Below, in pieces: positions 12,221 to 19,643 of a stretch of DNA of 22,550 nucleotides (position 1 is its first letter; every line of letters begins with the position of its first letter). The DNA is from a virus. The notes beneath the pieces were generated by a model, which made no database searches, was not told where the DNA came from, and saw only the letters and a list, made by a program, of their open reading frames with translations. The DNA is taken from the IMG/VR virus record IMGVR_UViG_3300032242_003753, positions 1-22,550 of that record; one strand, 5' to 3'. Made by a program: the position numbers and the translations under genes.

Positions 12221-12810
12221 TGACAAAGCTTTTTCAAGAAATATTACAGAGCAGTAAAGACGCGCCAACTACAAAACAAGCTGTTGACTGGTTACGCCAG
12301 CAAGCTTTGAAAACAAAAAACATCAACCCTCAATCGTTGATCGATGACGCTGGCGCTTTCAAGCGTATGGTTGGTTTGAGCGAGAACTCTATCGGCAAAA
12401 TGTACATGTTTAGCTATGACCCTAAACACAAAGACACATTGCCATATTACGACAACTATCCGCTGATATTCCCTGTTGAATATTACGGTGATAGTTTCCT
12501 AGGAATCAACCTGCATTATTTGCCGCCGATGCTTAGAGCAAAGCTTATGGACGCTCTAATGGCAACCATAAATAATAAAAAGTATGATAAAACAACAAAG
12601 CTCGTATTGTCTTATCAGATCCTAAAAGGTGCTTCGAAGTTTAAGTATTTCGAACCATGTTTGAAAAAGTATTTATTCAGTCATGTCAAATCGCCATTTG
12701 TTTATATTGCCCCGAACGAATGGAATATTGCGTTGATGTTACCAACTGAAAGATTCGTCGGAGCTTCAAAAACACAGGTCTTTAAAGATTCAACATCGAT
12801 GGTAAGGTAA
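12220..12810 (+). CDS. Probable DNA end protector gp2-like protein
   Basis: A 196-residue protein with a clearly conserved T4-like phage core: GKMYMFSYDPKHKDTLPYYD (about residues 59-78), then PLIFPVEYYGDSFLGINLHY with LPPMLRAKLMDAL, and a C-terminal FKYFEPCLKKYLFSHVKS and LPTERF. This pattern belongs to a conserved virion-assembly family that I associate with the gp2/head-neck region. T4 gene order (3-2-4-53) places gp2 next to gp4, as here, so gp2 is the best guess. The assignment is from memory of the family pattern and synteny, not from an alignment; a different neck or hub assembly role is possible. It starts and ends with TAATG overlaps. Confidence 0.5.
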   Translation: MTKLFQEILQSSKDAPTTKQAVDWLRQQALKTKNINPQSLIDDAGAFKRMVGLSENSIGKMYMFSYDPKHKDTLPYYDNYPLIFPVEYYGDSFLGINLHYLPPMLRAKLMDALMATINNKKYDKTTKLVLSYQILKGASKFKYFEPCLKKYLFSHVKSPFVYIAPNEWNIALMLPTERFVGASKTQVFKDSTSMVR

Positions 12811-13448
12811 TGGCTGGTTTTAACGTAGACACATTCAAAAGCAATATAGCGAAAAACGGATTTGTTCAAACCAACAAATACGACATCAACATCAATTTCA
12901 ACAACGGTAATTTCAACCTGCAGATTGCGCAAGGCGCTGGTCCTAGTTTACCAACAAGTTTCAATGATATAGCTAAAGATTTGAGCTACCGTTGTACAAA
13001 CGCTGTATTGCCAGGTGTTGCTTTGCGTACAATCGACTCTAACAGATATGGTCTTGGCATCATAGAAAAAATGCCTTACACAGGTAATTATACAGATATT
13101 ACGTTGACGTTTATGTGCGACCGTTTAGGTTTGACTTACAACTTTTGGTACGCTTGGATCAATTACATTTTTTCAGTAAACGGTCACGATACCGATAGGG
13201 GAACCGTCGCGGGCGCGAACCGTCCATATTACACAACAGAATACAAAGACAATTATTCTGCTGACATTACGATAAACGTATATGATAATTCTGGCACCAA
13301 CGCTTTGGCGTACACTTTGTACAGAGCGTACCCAATTTCAATAAACGACACTTCTGTAGGTTGGGGCGACAATAACGACTTATTGAAACTTACTACAACA
13401 TTAACATTCCGCGAATGGGAATTTCAAGGAACAACTCTAAGTAGATAA
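12810..13448 (+). CDS. Tail-tube-fold protein (gp19/gp54-like)
   Basis: A 212-residue protein with the phage tail tube pattern: NAVLPGVALRTIDSNRYGLG (about residues 68-87), then MPYTGNYTDITLTFMCDR and FWYAWINYIF, comparable to the LPGV-----YG----YP----D--LTF---------W--W--I motif of gp19. The C-terminal part ends with the beta strand LTTTLTFREWEFQG, as tube proteins do. The usual tube gene sits next to the sheath gene; here the neighbours are gp2-, gp4- and gp26-type genes, so this is more likely a tube-baseplate junction protein of the gp54 kind than the main tube monomer. Both share the fold. It starts in a TAATG overlap. Confidence 0.65.
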   Translation: MAGFNVDTFKSNIAKNGFVQTNKYDININFNNGNFNLQIAQGAGPSLPTSFNDIAKDLSYRCTNAVLPGVALRTIDSNRYGLGIIEKMPYTGNYTDITLTFMCDRLGLTYNFWYAWINYIFSVNGHDTDRGTVAGANRPYYTTEYKDNYSADITINVYDNSGTNALAYTLYRAYPISINDTSVGWGDNNDLLKLTTTLTFREWEFQGTTLSR

Positions 13449-13462
13449 AAGTGAGGTAAATT

Positions 13463-14176
13463 ATGGCACTTCCGAAAATTCAATATCCAACTACTAGCAT
13501 AAAAATCCCACCCACCAACAAAGAATATTCTTTCAGACCAATGTTGGTGAAGGAAGAAAAAATTCTCCTTGTTGCTAAGGCTAGCGAAGACGAAACAGAT
13601 ATACTCACAGCCATCAAACAAGTAATCAACAACTGCTGCCTAGACGATAGGTTTGATGTTGACAAAATCCCTTTGTTCGCTTTGGAATACGTGTTCCTCA
13701 AGCTGAGGTCTATTTCTATCGGCGATCAGGTAAAGGTTTCTTATCGCGATTTTGAAGACAACAAGCTTTATGACTTCAATGTCATTTTGAGTAATGTAGA
13801 AATTCGTTACCCAGAAAACATCGAACCTAAAATTCAAATCAACGAAAATGCTGGCGTCATCATGACCTACCCAACAGCGAATCTTTACAGCGATAAAGAA
13901 TTTTTGGCTACAGTTGGTGAAGAGTCAGCTTTCAAATTGATCGTAAAATGTATCGACAAAGTGTATGACGCTGAAACGGTTCATGAAGCTAAGGAATTTG
14001 AAGAAAAAGATCTTATGGAATTTATTGAACTGCTTGATGTTCAGAGTTTCACTAAGATTAGGGATTTCATGAGTAACATTCCTAGCCTTTATTACAAACT
14101 GGAATATACTAACGAGAACGGTAATGTAAGGACAATCGAGCTAACTTCGTTAACTGATTTTTTTACATTGCGCTGA
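13463..14176 (+). CDS. 26: Baseplate hub/tail assembly protein gp26-like
   Basis: A 237-residue protein resembling T4 gp26 (208 residues) and the T4 baseplate protein family. Typical segments are IKIPPTNKEYSFRPMLVKEE (residues about 13-32) followed by KILLVAKASEDETDIL, an ILTAIKQVINNC helix, LFALEYVFLKLRSISIGDQV and the C-terminal helical FIELLDVQSFTKIRDFMSNI followed by a Y-Y--EY--ENG hairpin. A GAGG ribosome-binding site precedes the ATG. The zero-frame protein stops at 14176 (TGA), 12 bases after a run of seven T at which a -1 slip would fuse it to the gp51-like segment. Small hub proteins of this kind behave as tail assembly chaperones in other phages; that role here is inference. Confidence 0.8.
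   Translation: MALPKIQYPTTSIKIPPTNKEYSFRPMLVKEEKILLVAKASEDETDILTAIKQVINNCCLDDRFDVDKIPLFALEYVFLKLRSISIGDQVKVSYRDFEDNKLYDFNVILSNVEIRYPENIEPKIQINENAGVIMTYPTANLYSDKEFLATVGEESAFKLIVKCIDKVYDAETVHEAKEFEEKDLMEFIELLDVQSFTKIRDFMSNIPSLYYKLEYTNENGNVRTIELTSLTDFFTLR
14158..14164 (+). promoter_or_regulatory. Candidate -1 ribosomal frameshift site (T TTT TTT)
   Basis: A run of seven T in the zero-frame phase GAT TTT TTT ACA, which fits the X XXY YYZ slippery heptamer. A -1 slip reads TTT TTT TAC ATT GCG and continues open to the TAA at 14338-14340. In the -1 frame a TGA lies immediately before the heptamer, so no separate upstream reading exists. A small 5-bp hairpin with a 6-base loop can be drawn at 14182-14197, but it is weak and further away than is usual; no strong stimulator is evident. 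Confidence 0.6.
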
Positions 14177-14340
14177 ATCACAACTCGTTAGAGGGTTACT
14201 ACAAAACAGTTTTTTCTCTGGTTCAGCATCATAAATATTCTATTACTGAAGTGGAAAACCTTATCCCGTTTGAACGCGATATTTACGTCGATATGTTGAT
14301 AGCCTACCTAAAAGAACTAGAAGATAAACAAAAGGCGTAA
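14164..14340 (+). CDS. gp51-like C-terminal extension, made by -1 frameshift
   Basis: A 58-codon open stretch that begins inside the end of gp26 and lacks any ATG, GTG or TTG start near its beginning; the first ATG (in a DMLIAY context) is only about 15 codons from the end. Its sequence is coding-like and conserved in character: YIALNHNSLEGYYKTVFSLV, then QHHKYSITEVENLIPFERDI and YVDMLIAYLKELED. The HHK-SITE-E--PFERDIY pattern is one seen in the T-type extensions of tail assembly chaperones and in the region after gp26 where T4 encodes gp51. The full product would be a gp26-gp51 fusion of about 292 residues (13463-14340, joined at the seven T). It could alternatively be a separate protein from a non-standard start or a sequencing indel. 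Confidence 0.6.
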   Translation, partial: YIALNHNSLEGYYKTVFSLVQHHKYSITEVENLIPFERDIYVDMLIAYLKELEDKQKA

Positions 14341-14348
14341 TACACGTA

Positions 14349-16700
14349 ATGGCAAAAAAACCAAAACTTCAGCCAGCTGGTGATTTCGGCGGAAAAAAAT
14401 ACTACTATACAGCTGAAGGCGATATAGTAGACGAAGGCGGTAATTTACAAGAACCTGGATTCGTAAAAAGAATTGGTCCTATGTTGGACCCATTCGATGC
14501 GAATTACGGTAAAACGTCAGCCAAACCTCCAAAGAAACAAAGAACCCGTACAAAAGCTAAACCAGCTGACACTACGCCAAAACCTGCAACCCCCCCAACG
14601 CCGCCCCCTCCTCCGCAGGGTAAAATCAAGACGCTTGCTAAGTTCGCAGGTAAAAAGTTCTTGCAAAGTTCTTTTCCTACCGTGTATGGTTTGTATAGCG
14701 AGTATCAGGATTACAAAGAGGAAAATTTAAAAAAACAAGAAGAAAAAACCAAAAAAGATAATAAATCTTCTGACGATAAAAGATTACAAAGTGACATCAA
14801 AGCTGGGTTAGATTTTACCAACGTTTTGATGAAAGAGTCGACGAATTTGATTCGTCAATCTTTATCGAATCAAGAAAGAATTATGACTCTACTGAGCGGT
14901 ATATCTTCGACGCTTGAACAGATCAAGCTGTTGATGATGCTCAAGTCAGCTGGAGGTTTGACTTCTGGTTTTGGTAGTTTATTAGATAAACTCAGGTACG
15001 GTTCCGTGATTGGTCTCGGCGCTTTGGCTGTAGGTTCGGCTGTAGCAATAAAAGAAGGTATAGATGAATATAAAGATATACCAAATAGACCCGACAAAGA
15101 TACATTAGACCAATCTTCGACTAAGCCAGATGGCACGCCAAAAACTGACGCTGAAATGCGCGAAGAAGCATTCAAACAGCGTGGTAGGTCTATGGGCGGT
15201 AGACCACAACCTCCCGCGTATGCTGAAGGGACACCTCCGGCTACCCAGCGTAATGCGTTGGCGGAAACAAATCAAACAAAAAACGTTGCAGCGGCTAAAG
15301 AAAATACGTTAGAAAAGAAAAACGTAAACTTAGACGTCGACGATTTTTCTATCAAAAGCCCGAAAATAAGTTTTGAAACGCAAAAATTTATTCTTGATGC
15401 AAAAGAAGTAGAAAAAATCGCACAAAAAATTATTGGCGGTTCCAACCCTCAAGCGGGTGGAGGAGGAGGCGGCGGAGGCTCTGGTTCCGGTGCTGGTTCT
15501 GGTGGTGGCGGAGGCTCTGGAGCTGTCAGCGGGGGAGGCGGTGGCAGCCCTCAAGCGGCGGGCGGTCCTCAAGGAACCACACCACAACCAGCAAATAGTG
15601 CCCCTAGTTCAACGACTCCAGGAGCAGCTTCTGGAACAACAACGCCAGCTGGAACTCCTGCAGGTGGAGCTCCGACGCCAGGAGCTGGAGGAAAATACGA
15701 CGAAGCTGGTTTGATAGGGATAATGAAACAAGCTGGCGCTACCGATGAAGAAGCGAAAGTATTTGCTAAAATTGCGATTAGAGAATCTGGCGGGATTCCA
15801 ACAGCTCATAATGATGATTCTAGCACTGGCGATGATTCTTATGGTCTTTGGCAGATTAATATGATCGGTAGAATGGGTCCAGATAGATTAAAAAGATTAG
15901 GAATAAATGATCCGAAAGAATTATTAGATCCATTAGTTAATGCTAAAGCTGCTCTTATGTTGAAAAGAGGGCAGATGGGTCCAGGACCAGCTGGTTGGAA
16001 ACCATGGAGAGGCAGAGGCGATAATAGTATGCTTCCGCGTGAAGATAATTCTCCAACTCCGTCCCCAACTCCAACTACAACTCCAGGTCCAAGTTCAGAA
16101 AACAACGATCCATTACAGCAACTAAGGGAACAAAGGCAAAGTTTGGCTGAATTGAGGGATACTGGTTTCTCTAGAACTAGAGCTTTTGCTGAAGGCACAG
16201 AAGACAACTCTTCATTTTTTAGAAACCAATACGAAACAAACCCTCAATTTAGGGAAGCTCAAAGGAATCAGGGTAGGTTCCTAGACAATAATCTATTGGG
16301 CGGCGCTGGACAAGATATACAAAAAGGCGATTATGGTTCTGCTTTATTAGGTTTGGGCGGTAGTGCTTTAGGCTTTATGGGAGGCGCTGGTATTGGCGCA
16401 AAAATAATAAAAGGCGTTGGCGGTCAAGGTATTGACATGATACGCGACAGGATGAAGGAAAGCAATAAAGAAGTCCCAGGTCCTATGCCCGCTAGAAAAC
16501 AACAGCAAAGGTTACCAAAAGATTCAGGTAAAGTTGCCGCGCCGCAACAGCAGCAAGACCCAGCTTTGAAATTGCCGCCTTCAAGAATGTCAAAATGGAA
16601 TCAAACAAAAGATCCGTCATCATTGCACAACGAAAATATTCAAAGGTCTTATAGAGTGTACGACCCAAACGGAAAAGTTTCTAAGGAAATAGGATTCTAA
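14349..16700 (+). CDS. Tail-associated protein with lytic transglycosylase (SLT) domain
   Basis: A 783-residue modular protein. Residues about 95-135 are a LAKFAGKKFLQSSFPTVYGL segment running into a highly charged EYQDYKEE helix, a module shared with the next gene. A hydrophobic stretch follows (GSVIGLGALAVGSAVAIKEG, about 217-236), then Gly/Ser-rich (370-405) and Pro/Thr-rich (405-445) linkers. Residues about 447-560 form a lysozyme-like SLT/transglycosylase domain: the catalytic Glu is in IRESGG (about 478), with SYGLWQINM (about 496) and a NAKAALMLKR helix, the classical E-S-G, GLWQIN and A-L-L pattern. An AEGT motif recurs (residues about 294, 616). It probably cuts murein during DNA injection and may act as part of a tape measure or hub. 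No ribosome-binding site is obvious. Confidence 0.78.
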   Translation: MAKKPKLQPAGDFGGKKYYYTAEGDIVDEGGNLQEPGFVKRIGPMLDPFDANYGKTSAKPPKKQRTRTKAKPADTTPKPATPPTPPPPPQGKIKTLAKFAGKKFLQSSFPTVYGLYSEYQDYKEENLKKQEEKTKKDNKSSDDKRLQSDIKAGLDFTNVLMKESTNLIRQSLSNQERIMTLLSGISSTLEQIKLLMMLKSAGGLTSGFGSLLDKLRYGSVIGLGALAVGSAVAIKEGIDEYKDIPNRPDKDTLDQSSTKPDGTPKTDAEMREEAFKQRGRSMGGRPQPPAYAEGTPPATQRNALAETNQTKNVAAAKENTLEKKNVNLDVDDFSIKSPKISFETQKFILDAKEVEKIAQKIIGGSNPQAGGGGGGGGSGSGAGSGGGGGSGAVSGGGGGSPQAAGGPQGTTPQPANSAPSSTTPGAASGTTTPAGTPAGGAPTPGAGGKYDEAGLIGIMKQAGATDEEAKVFAKIAIRESGGIPTAHNDDSSTGDDSYGLWQINMIGRMGPDRLKRLGINDPKELLDPLVNAKAALMLKRGQMGPGPAGWKPWRGRGDNSMLPREDNSPTPSPTPTTTPGPSSENNDPLQQLREQRQSLAELRDTGFSRTRAFAEGTEDNSSFFRNQYETNPQFREAQRNQGRFLDNNLLGGAGQDIQKGDYGSALLGLGGSALGFMGGAGIGAKIIKGVGGQGIDMIRDRMKESNKEVPGPMPARKQQQRLPKDSGKVAAPQQQQDPALKLPPSRMSKWNQTKDPSSLHNENIQRSYRVYDPNGKVSKEIGF

Positions 16701-16701
16701 T

Positions 16702-19131
16702 ATGGGCGTTACATCCGCTATAACTGGTGCATTGACTAGTGACCTCGCAAAATTCGCGGGTAAAAAGTTTTTGGAAAGTTCGTTTCCACAAATGTATTCG
16801 TTGCATAAAGAATACAAGCAATACAAAAAAGAAAAAGATAAAAAAAGAGACAATAAAGACAAAAGCGGAATCGAAAACGACATTGATCAGCTTGATAATG
16901 ACGTAAAAGATACTAACACATTGTTGGAAACAGAAGCTGCTGTTCTCGGCAATCAAACAATGATCATGGAAAAAATACTTCAAGAAGTATCAAGCATGAG
17001 GAATCAGCTTTTACTTGGAAGCTTTGGTGGCGGACCAGACATCAATTCCCGTAATGCGCCTGGCGGCGGACCAGCTGGCGGTGGAGGACCAAAAGGTGGA
17101 GGTCCGTCGGGCGGTATATTCAAAAACGCTGAAGAAGCAAAAAAAGCTGGCGGTGGAAAATACTACGATAAAAACGGTCGCCTTCAAGAAATGAAACCGA
17201 AACCAGGCGGCGGTTTCCGTAGTTCATTTGTCAAAAACGTTGCTGAAGTCAAACCAAGTTTTCTAAGCCAAGCTACAAGTTTCGGTAAAGGTGCTTTGCG
17301 TTTCGCTGGTGGCGCTTTGCGTTTCGCTGGTAGGCTTTATGGTCCATTGGCGCTTGCTGGTTTGGCTTACGATATACACAATGCCACACCGCAATCTATA
17401 GAAGAAAAAATGAATGACCCTTTGAATGAACCAGGCAGCTTGAATAGGTTGCTCGGTATCGACAAATGGTTTGGTGGTGGTAAGAAAAAAGTTTCAAATG
17501 AAGAAAAACAATCCCTGAATACGTTAGCTTACAGGGCTAGCAACAGTATTACATTCAAATCAGAAGAACTCAAAATAACTGCAGATAAACTAGTTTTGAG
17601 CGAAAATTTGATTGATATGCTATTAAGTTTGGCTTCAGGCGCAGTTGATCAAGCTCGAGCGACAGCTCAAGCGGATGCACAAGATAGATCAAAAGCACTC
17701 CTTGACGTTGGCGCACGTTTGGGCGGAGGTAGATCGCCAGCGGCTACGAGTCAACAAGCGAACCCTGCAGAAGCCGAAAAAAATTTAACGCCCGTAACTG
17801 CTAAAAAGTCTGGCGTGTCGGATAAAGTTGGTTCTGCTTACGCTTCTAATTTCCAAGGATTTCTTGACGACTTGGAAGCTACGGGTTATCAAATCAAAAG
17901 CCTTGGCGGGTATTCGTTCAGAGGTAATAAAAATAACCCAAGTATGTTAAGTTATCACGGTCTTGGTGCTGCGCTCGACGTCAATGCCGCGACAAATCCG
18001 TTTCACACTAGACAAACCGACTTCCCGCCAAACATCGGCGATATTGCGAAAGCTCACGGTTTGGGTTGGGGTATTTCGTTTGAAGACCCAATGCATTTTT
18101 CTGCTGCTAAAAGAGAAGGCGGTAGTTTTGATATAGCACAACAAAGGATGCCAGGTTACGCTTCTGGTACACCTTACGTGCCTCAAACAGGTATAGCAAC
18201 GGTTGGTGAATTAGGTTCTGAAACTATCGTTGGTAAAAGCGGTATAAGAAAAACTGCTGCTGGCGCTCACCCAATGATGCTAAGAAAAGGCGAATCAGTT
18301 ATTCCCGCTGGCGAAAAAAGATCGTCTTCTGAAATCATGGCTGAGTATCAAAACGCCAAGGCGTTCGCTGACGGCACCCCGCAAGTTAGACCTTTATTGG
18401 CTCCTGGAGAAACAACTCAACCTATTCAGCCGATTCAGCCGATTAAAATTGAAACGCCCGCTGAAGCAAAAATGAAAAAATACCTCGAAGGTGTTCCTTA
18501 TGACCCTGTTTTGCAGGCTGGCATGAGAAAAATCGGTGGCGCTAAAAATATCATAATGAAAGAAGACCTTTTACATCAAAGTGGCGTTTTTGGTGCTTAC
18601 ATCCCCCCAGACGCTAAAGGTAAAAATGCGGCTTCTGAAAAAACTTTGAGTGCTTTTAGAAACAAAATATTTCTTGACCCAGAACATCCAGGTTTGAAAT
18701 TAGGAGATCAAACTATCGGAGGTAGAGGTCCAGAACAAATAAAAACAACCGCTCAACACGAACTAAGTCACGCCGCAACTCAAGAATATTGGGAAAAGAA
18801 TCTCATCAGCCCGGAAATGTTGAACGAGATAAAAGGGTTCACAGGCAAATCTCCAAAGGACGCAGGTTTGTATGGTAGTGGGTTAGGCGAAGAAGCTAGA
18901 CAAAGAATTAGAGACTTAGAAACTCGCGGAGAGTTTATGGAGTATGACGAGCTCGAAGGCGTGAGTGCTTACGTGAACAAATACAAACCTTACAATGAAA
19001 AAGGGTTGACACCAGATCAGATAGACGAATACGAAGCTTCAAGAGATAGAATGCTATCCAACTTAAATAAAGACGTCAAAAGAGCTTTCAGTTCCGTTGA
19101 CATGCTAGAAAAACTTGCTGACTATAAATAA
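16702..19131 (+). CDS. Tail-associated protein with M15 peptidase and zincin domains
   Basis: An 809-residue protein starting one base after the previous stop codon (TAATATG). Residues 12-45 repeat the LAKFAGKKFLESSFPQMYSL module of the preceding gene, so the two are paralogues. A Gly-rich linker and a hydrophobic FAGGALRFAGRLYGPLALAG region (about 200-225) follow. Residues about 366-470 are an M15 D-Ala-D-Ala/L-Ala-D-Glu peptidase: Zn ligands in SYHGLGAALD (about 416-426) and the DPMH motif (about 463-466). Residues 485-540 (YASGTPYVPQTGIATVGELG) are the VGE-G-E repeat typical of tape measure ends. A C-terminal domain has HELSHA (about 686), a HExxH zincin motif, with a later DELEGVSAY that could supply the third ligand. 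The product is likely a tail murein hydrolase, possibly part of the tape measure. Confidence 0.78.
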   Translation: MGVTSAITGALTSDLAKFAGKKFLESSFPQMYSLHKEYKQYKKEKDKKRDNKDKSGIENDIDQLDNDVKDTNTLLETEAAVLGNQTMIMEKILQEVSSMRNQLLLGSFGGGPDINSRNAPGGGPAGGGGPKGGGPSGGIFKNAEEAKKAGGGKYYDKNGRLQEMKPKPGGGFRSSFVKNVAEVKPSFLSQATSFGKGALRFAGGALRFAGRLYGPLALAGLAYDIHNATPQSIEEKMNDPLNEPGSLNRLLGIDKWFGGGKKKVSNEEKQSLNTLAYRASNSITFKSEELKITADKLVLSENLIDMLLSLASGAVDQARATAQADAQDRSKALLDVGARLGGGRSPAATSQQANPAEAEKNLTPVTAKKSGVSDKVGSAYASNFQGFLDDLEATGYQIKSLGGYSFRGNKNNPSMLSYHGLGAALDVNAATNPFHTRQTDFPPNIGDIAKAHGLGWGISFEDPMHFSAAKREGGSFDIAQQRMPGYASGTPYVPQTGIATVGELGSETIVGKSGIRKTAAGAHPMMLRKGESVIPAGEKRSSSEIMAEYQNAKAFADGTPQVRPLLAPGETTQPIQPIQPIKIETPAEAKMKKYLEGVPYDPVLQAGMRKIGGAKNIIMKEDLLHQSGVFGAYIPPDAKGKNAASEKTLSAFRNKIFLDPEHPGLKLGDQTIGGRGPEQIKTTAQHELSHAATQEYWEKNLISPEMLNEIKGFTGKSPKDAGLYGSGLGEEARQRIRDLETRGEFMEYDELEGVSAYVNKYKPYNEKGLTPDQIDEYEASRDRMLSNLNKDVKRAFSSVDMLEKLADYK
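17293..17334 (+). repeat. 21-bp tandem direct repeat in coding sequence
   Basis: Two adjacent 21-base units (17293-17313 and 17314-17334), identical over 18 bases, encoding ALRFAGG and ALRFAGR. They lie in the hydrophobic region of the 809-residue tail protein and add exactly seven residues, so the frame is kept. Confidence 0.85.
19123..19130 (+). promoter_or_regulatory. T4-type late promoter for the holin
   Basis: An exact TATAAATA box at the stop of the 809-residue tail protein (GAC TAT AAA TAA). RNA would start near 19136 and carry a leader of about 16 bases with a GGA ribosome-binding site before the holin ATG, giving the holin its own late transcript. Confidence 0.7.
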
Positions 19132-19151: not shown

Positions 19152-19643
19152 ATGGCTAAATTCGGAAAATCAATCGCAGCTGACGATGATAACGCCCCTC
19201 CAGCTCCGCCACCAGCAACCGTTGTTGTCGTTGATAACAACAATAACAATAATGGCGGAAGCAATAATAATACGAATTTTCAGGCTCAACAAGCCACTGT
19301 ACAAGCGCAAGCGACTGCTTCCGTTGGTCTAGCTCAAACTTCGATTGATGATGAAGTCATCAAAGAGCAGATGGAAAAAGAGCAAGAGCATTGGGTGAAA
19401 GCATATTGGCGCCCAGCAATGGGTTGGCTCTATATGGTTATTTGTTTTATGGACTTCGTTGGGTTCCCAGCTATCACTATGTTCCTTCCAGTTATTGAAA
19501 AAGGATTCGGGATACAAATGGGTTACACGCCTTGGGTTAGTTTGACACTCAGCAACGGCGGTTTGATTCATATGGCGTTTGGTGCTATCCTTGGCGTTGC
19601 TGCTTACGGCAGGACTCAAGAAAAAGTTCAGAGCAAACAATAA
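19152..19643 (+). CDS. Holin-like membrane protein
   Basis: A 163-residue protein. Residues 1-75 are low complexity: Pro/Ala-rich (15-25), a poly-Asn tract (29-42), then Gln/Ala/Thr-rich. Residues 80-158 form the conserved part: WVKAYWRPAMGWLYMVICFM and DFVGFPAITMF (one or two membrane segments about 89-112), WVSLTLSNGGLIHMAFGAIL with GVAAY (second about 128-152) and the terminal RTQEK. This RP----- to -G---R--EK pattern is that of three-TM phage holins in the gene-transfer-agent release family. The long polar N-terminus is not usual. It stands last in the operon, after two wall-degrading tail proteins, with a private late promoter, and ends at a terminator. It should set the time of lysis; no separate endolysin was found in the window. 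Confidence 0.72.
   Translation: MAKFGKSIAADDDNAPPAPPPATVVVVDNNNNNNGGSNNNTNFQAQQATVQAQATASVGLAQTSIDDEVIKEQMEKEQEHWVKAYWRPAMGWLYMVICFMDFVGFPAITMFLPVIEKGFGIQMGYTPWVSLTLSNGGLIHMAFGAILGVAAYGRTQEKVQSKQ

Follow-up and report, generated by a model that had tools for sequence, protein, structure and literature searches.

The gp26 gene of the phage studied here, together with the reading frame that continues from its 3' end in the -1 frame, is best read as a G/GT-type tail assembly chaperone gene whose long form would be made by -1 slippage, and on sequence evidence we give this reading a probability of about 90%. A programmed -1 frameshift and the G/GT arrangement of tail assembly chaperones had both been put forward in an original prediction on this DNA; the slippery heptamer, its frame, the homology of the extension, the conservation of the site across related phages and a downstream stem now support the frameshift, and the same comparison supports a G/GT-like logic. 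The window, i.e. the whole stretch of DNA that was analyzed, is a linear virus record of 22.55 kb, and its relevant features are collected in Table 1.

gp26, its extension and the slip site

The gp26 protein matches Pfam family PF12322 over its full length (2e-49, 168.7 bits, curated cut-off 24.5) and phrog_150 at 1.1e-54. Its gene starts with an ATG and in the zero frame ends ACT GAT TTT TTT ACA TTG CGC TGA. The seven T are phased gaT TTT TTT, fit the X XXY YYZ pattern, lie inside the overlap and are separated from the gp26 stop by 9 nt (12 counted from the A-site codon). The -1 frame is open for 58 codons (14164-14337) and closes with TAA at 14338-14340, giving a predicted fusion of 234+58=292 aa with the junction peptide DFFYIALNHNSLEG; short and long isoforms with a common N-terminal domain are thus predicted from the anatomy of the gene. 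The extension matches phrog_634, the "baseplate hub assembly catalyst" (gp51), at 2.4e-25 and aligns to the C-terminus of gp51, and a tblastn search with it matched 602 phage records, usually beside gp26. The original prediction had described a heptamer in the correct phase before the gp26 stop, 58 open codons, this junction peptide and a gp51-like extension, and on each of these points it agrees with the sequence.

It had also named conservation of the slip site in related phages as a check, and T TTT TTN was kept in phase beside the gp26 stop at 183/183 related loci. The last base of the heptamer is C at 98 of these, T at 83, and G and A at one each; among the first 80 contigs, T TTT TTT or T TTT TTC stands in the correct phase at every usable locus. 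The remaining Phe-Phe pairs in the same genes are encoded by the heptamer in 2 of 114 cases. Clustered at 60% protein identity, the 180 longest loci gave 31 groups, and the probability that every group would have the heptamer, estimated from each locus's own codon usage, was about 10^-19, a rough bound in which shared ancestry means that independence is overstated. By these sequence counts, the heptamer is conserved beyond the need of the protein. The layout is not attributable to chance because the phrog_634 match, the heptamer at every related locus and the codon-usage estimate all speak for it. The same layout is found in phages of Vibrio, Sinorhizobium, Rhizobium (TTTTTTG), Acidovorax, Nitratidesulfovibrio, Pelagibacter, Methylophilales, Stenotrophomonas, Pseudomonas and Aeromonas. 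Scans that used the tails from vibriophages and Sinorhizobium phages as queries added few further contigs. In Kuttervirus EP75 (L104 3223-3396) and Vibrio phage D509 (L103 2055-2255), gp26 is followed by a tail in the -1 frame, and the canonical T TTT TTN heptamer is absent from both.

Table 1. Features of the gp26 region, in coordinates of the window
Feature	Position	Strand	Basis or detail
Tail tube-like protein, just 5' of gp26	12810..13448	+	phrog_45 2.3e-35
gp26, 237 aa, predicted short chaperone isoform, PF12322 T4_baseplate family	13463..14176	+	Pfam, phrog, AF2
TGA in -1 frame, directly 5' of slip site	14155..14157	+	sequence
T TTT TTT slippery heptamer, -1 phase	14158..14164	+	sequence; T TTT TTN in phase in 183/183 relatives
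-1 frame extension, 58 aa, gp51-like C-terminal tail	14164..14340	+	phrog_634; 602 phage records; aligned to T4-type gp51 C-terminus
5' arm of downstream stem, GCUGAAUCA	14172..14180	+	7-nt spacer after heptamer
gp26 zero-frame stop (TGA), within 5' arm of stem	14174..14176	+	sequence
3' arm of downstream stem, UGGUUCAGC	14219..14227	+	pairs with 14172-14180
783-aa tail protein, lysozyme/SLT domain, candidate tape measure	14349..16700	+	Pfam SLT_3 5e-12; relatives' downstream genes annotated tape measure

Access to the extension and its probable stimulatory signals

A start for the extension upstream of the slip site is ruled out in the window because the -1 frame TGA abuts the heptamer, and downstream of it ATG, GTG and TTG are absent before extension codon 30 (GTG), the first ATG coming at codon 44. 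The claim that the extension has no usable start of its own is thereby upheld. Across 179 loci, a -1 frame start codon 5' of the heptamer was found at only one, and 105 have no ATG, GTG or TTG ahead of extension codon 9. These counts bear on termination-reinitiation, in which the extension would be a small gp51 gene of its own, translated from a start just past the gp26 stop, as many records annotate it. The S-PM2 record, for example, annotates it as gp51 from an ATG just past that stop (the S-CAM1 record leaves it unannotated), TAATG or TGATG overlaps occur at KVP40-type and Rhizobium loci, and an ATG lies within the first 8 extension codons at 41 of 96 T6C loci. Some of these relatives could reinitiate at a nearby ATG; as a general account reinitiation is very unlikely, since it lacks a canonical start codon close to the gp26 stop in the window and at the 105 loci just mentioned and leaves unexplained a heptamer that is kept at all loci, the ATG-bearing ones included. 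Some annotated starts moreover cut into the conserved block, and T4-type gp51 is the full-length fused form.

Frameshifting at the heptamer would probably be stimulated by RNA structure. The original prediction saw no strong stimulating hairpin, a view that we revise: in the group of the window a 9-bp stem, stronger than in synonymous recodings, begins 7 nt 3' of the heptamer, a spacer within the 5-9 nt expected for a stimulatory structure. It was found by folding each sequence separately and was then counted on named pairs; RNAalifold returned no consensus structure for alignment A1 (28 rows). Over the 28 sequences, 94% of cells were paired (slid controls 16-43%), with double-sided changes in 4 of the 9 stem pairs. 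The 60 nt 3' of the heptamer fold at a mean of -13.3 kcal/mol, compared with -8.1 elsewhere in gp26, and the mean fold z against protein-preserving (synonymous) recodings is -3.9 for the T7 group, to which the window belongs, and -2.5 for the T6C group. The window by itself gives z -1.1 over 103 nt and -2.0 against recodings.

A second signal occurs in the T6C group, where the 3' end of 16S rRNA can pair with an element some 7-12 nt ahead of the heptamer. Its key codon is GAG in 47 cases and GAA in 10, against 595 GAG and 1494 GAA in the gene bodies. This SD-like element, a type of stimulator that frameshift sites may have or lack, is absent from the T7 group; an upstream anti-SD pairing element is also present in E. 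coli dnaX. We tentatively propose, at slightly less than even odds, that T4-like phages have two cassette designs in which the signals as well as the proteins are tuned to a fixed short-to-long ratio, T4 having met the same need through two paralogous genes. Under this tentative proposal, one design would combine T TTT TTT with a wide-loop stem and no SD-like element (the group of the window), and the other would combine T TTT TTC with an SD-like element and a short hairpin (the marine cyanophage group).

The length of the T run and the same two signals also weigh on transcriptional slippage, in which RNA polymerase would slip on the run to yield mRNAs one base short, and the fusion would follow by ordinary translation. 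The window has seven T and 8 loci have eight, which would suit such a process; none has more than eight, and 100 of 183 have just six, mostly as T TTT TTC. Six T are too short for efficient polymerase slippage. Transcriptional slippage is disfavored because of these six-T loci and is highly improbable, the conserved stem 3' of the heptamer and the anti-SD element 5' of it both being of types that are known to stimulate ribosomes. A homopolymer sequencing or assembly error that splits one in-frame gene, raised as a possibility in the original prediction and conceivable for a T run in a metagenome contig, has a negligible probability, since the same frame break is present at all 183 loci, across many independent contigs and isolates from different laboratories, and the TTTTTTC loci carry a shorter run.

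T4 genes 26 and 51 and a possible chaperone fold

Since T4 gp26 (208 aa) and T4 gp51 (249 aa) each match PF12322 along their full length, and a C-terminal tail beyond this domain is found in gp51 and not in T4 gp26, the two appear to be paralogous isoforms. A profile of the extension finds gp51 of Aes508 (8.5e-9), JSE, KP15 and T4 (1.2e-3), with no gp26 among its matches. T4 and the window thus share the PF12322 domain and a homologous tail; they differ in that T4 has two genes, 26 and 51, on opposite strands and divergently transcribed, and no slip site, its gene 26 ending GAG TTC TTT GAG TTA CTA TAA without the heptamer. When the shared domain was placed in an unrooted tree, a branch set each of three groups apart from the rest (frameshift-type gp26, T4-type 26 and T4-type 51), with weak support for T4-type 26. 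As judged from these comparisons, the predicted short and long isoforms come from the two divergent paralogous genes 26 and 51 in T4 and its close kin, and from one gene via frameshifting in most T4-like relatives. The original suggestion that T4 26 and 51 are two halves of one chaperone system therefore stands as to the G/GT-like logic and falls as to the halves, both proteins being full-length PF12322 members and gp51 bearing an extra tail. The arrangement in Klebsiella phage KP15 (L105 2501-3795) is different from the divergent T4 pair, as both genes share a strand there and 51 comes before 26.

The AF2 model of gp26 has a pLDDT of 92.6. In a fold comparison, the resemblance lay in its first 90 residues: 3fgx scored Z 8.2, 2ob9 (the tail assembly chaperone of HK97) came second at Z 7.3, and the next row stood at 3.9; Z values of 7-8 lie near the noise level of the tool. 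The same comparison did not list 2ob9 for the gp51 model, Foldseek alone gave no significant PDB match for gp26, and profile searches of PDB sequences returned nothing relevant. The predicted N-terminus of gp26 resembles the HK97 chaperone, and we take this resemblance as support and not as proof.

In the frameshift reading, most ribosomes would complete gp26 (237 aa), and a minority would slip by -1 when the Phe-Phe codon pair of T TTT TTT occupies the P and A sites, probably aided by the stem 7 nt downstream, so as to produce the 292-aa form with the gp51 tail at its end. By analogy with lambda, coating of the tape measure protein would fall to the short form, and recruitment of tube subunits to the tail of the rarer long form. 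T4 and its close kin, in which the slip site is missing, would draw both forms from the paralogous genes 26 (short) and 51 (long). The lambda heptamer is G GGA AAG and that of the window T TTT TTT, and a weak N-terminal fold is the most that the proteins have in common.

Known systems and the tail gene neighborhood

The idea behind the original prediction is not new. As far as the parts of the literature drawn on here indicate, tail assembly chaperone genes of T4-like phages were identified by Vladimirov, Gautam and Davidson (Virology 2022;566:9-15), and the record of Acinetobacter phage Konradin lists gp26 and gp51 as assembly chaperones of the tape measure protein. The title of the 2022 paper mentions a "mechanism other than translational frameshifting", a phrase that probably refers to T4 kin, in which 26 and 51 are separate genes, and might mean more. 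A later paper that cites it treats polyT as the -1 frameshift signals of TAC-N genes in T4-like phages (PMC12846349). On the same partial basis, the 2022 systems and the window belong to one gene class, apparently with the same short and long isoforms; the phage of the window is uncultivated, unlike those systems, and the 2022 paper may or may not describe the stem and the upstream stimulators. These signals are the part of our account least certain to be already published.

Two further systems resemble the window in arrangement. In lambda gpG/gpGT, a -1 frameshift near the end of the small gene and ahead of the tape measure gene gives a minor, C-terminally extended form (PMC5009743). At the chaperone locus of Vandenendeviridae and Andersonviridae, a poly-T site ahead of the tape measure gene has likewise been put forward as the place of a -1 frameshift (PMC12846349), although the motif there is GTTTTT and the phages belong to another family. 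T4 gp51 itself is required yet absent from the particle (PMC3004832). In cyanophages and vibriophages, gp51 has a "reduced" look, corresponding to just the last fifth of the T4 protein (Sullivan 2010, PMC3037559), and the frameshift reading would explain this, because the "reduced" protein would be the second part of a frameshift product. On this reading, many records omit the extension or assign it a false start.

The placement of gp26 ahead of long tail proteins, as originally predicted, is borne out: the 783-aa protein with an SLT lysozyme domain directly follows gp26 and its extension in the window. In Pelagibacter and Sinorhizobium phages, the putative tape measure gene lies one gene further on. 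The protein that follows gp51 in S-PM2 (L002 6173-9676, 1167 aa) has a tail lysozyme domain and a weak ADP-ribosyltransferase-like match at its N-terminus. Within the window, the long tail proteins at 14349-16700 and 16702-19131 adjoin one another and have a common N-terminal motif, LAKFAGKKFL-SSFP--Y-L--EY--YK, with different cell-wall domains (SLT lysozyme-like in the first, M15 peptidase in the second), as if duplicated. Just 3' of these two genes, at 19152-19643, is a 163-aa protein that matches the gene-transfer-agent-type 3TM holin family (PF11351).
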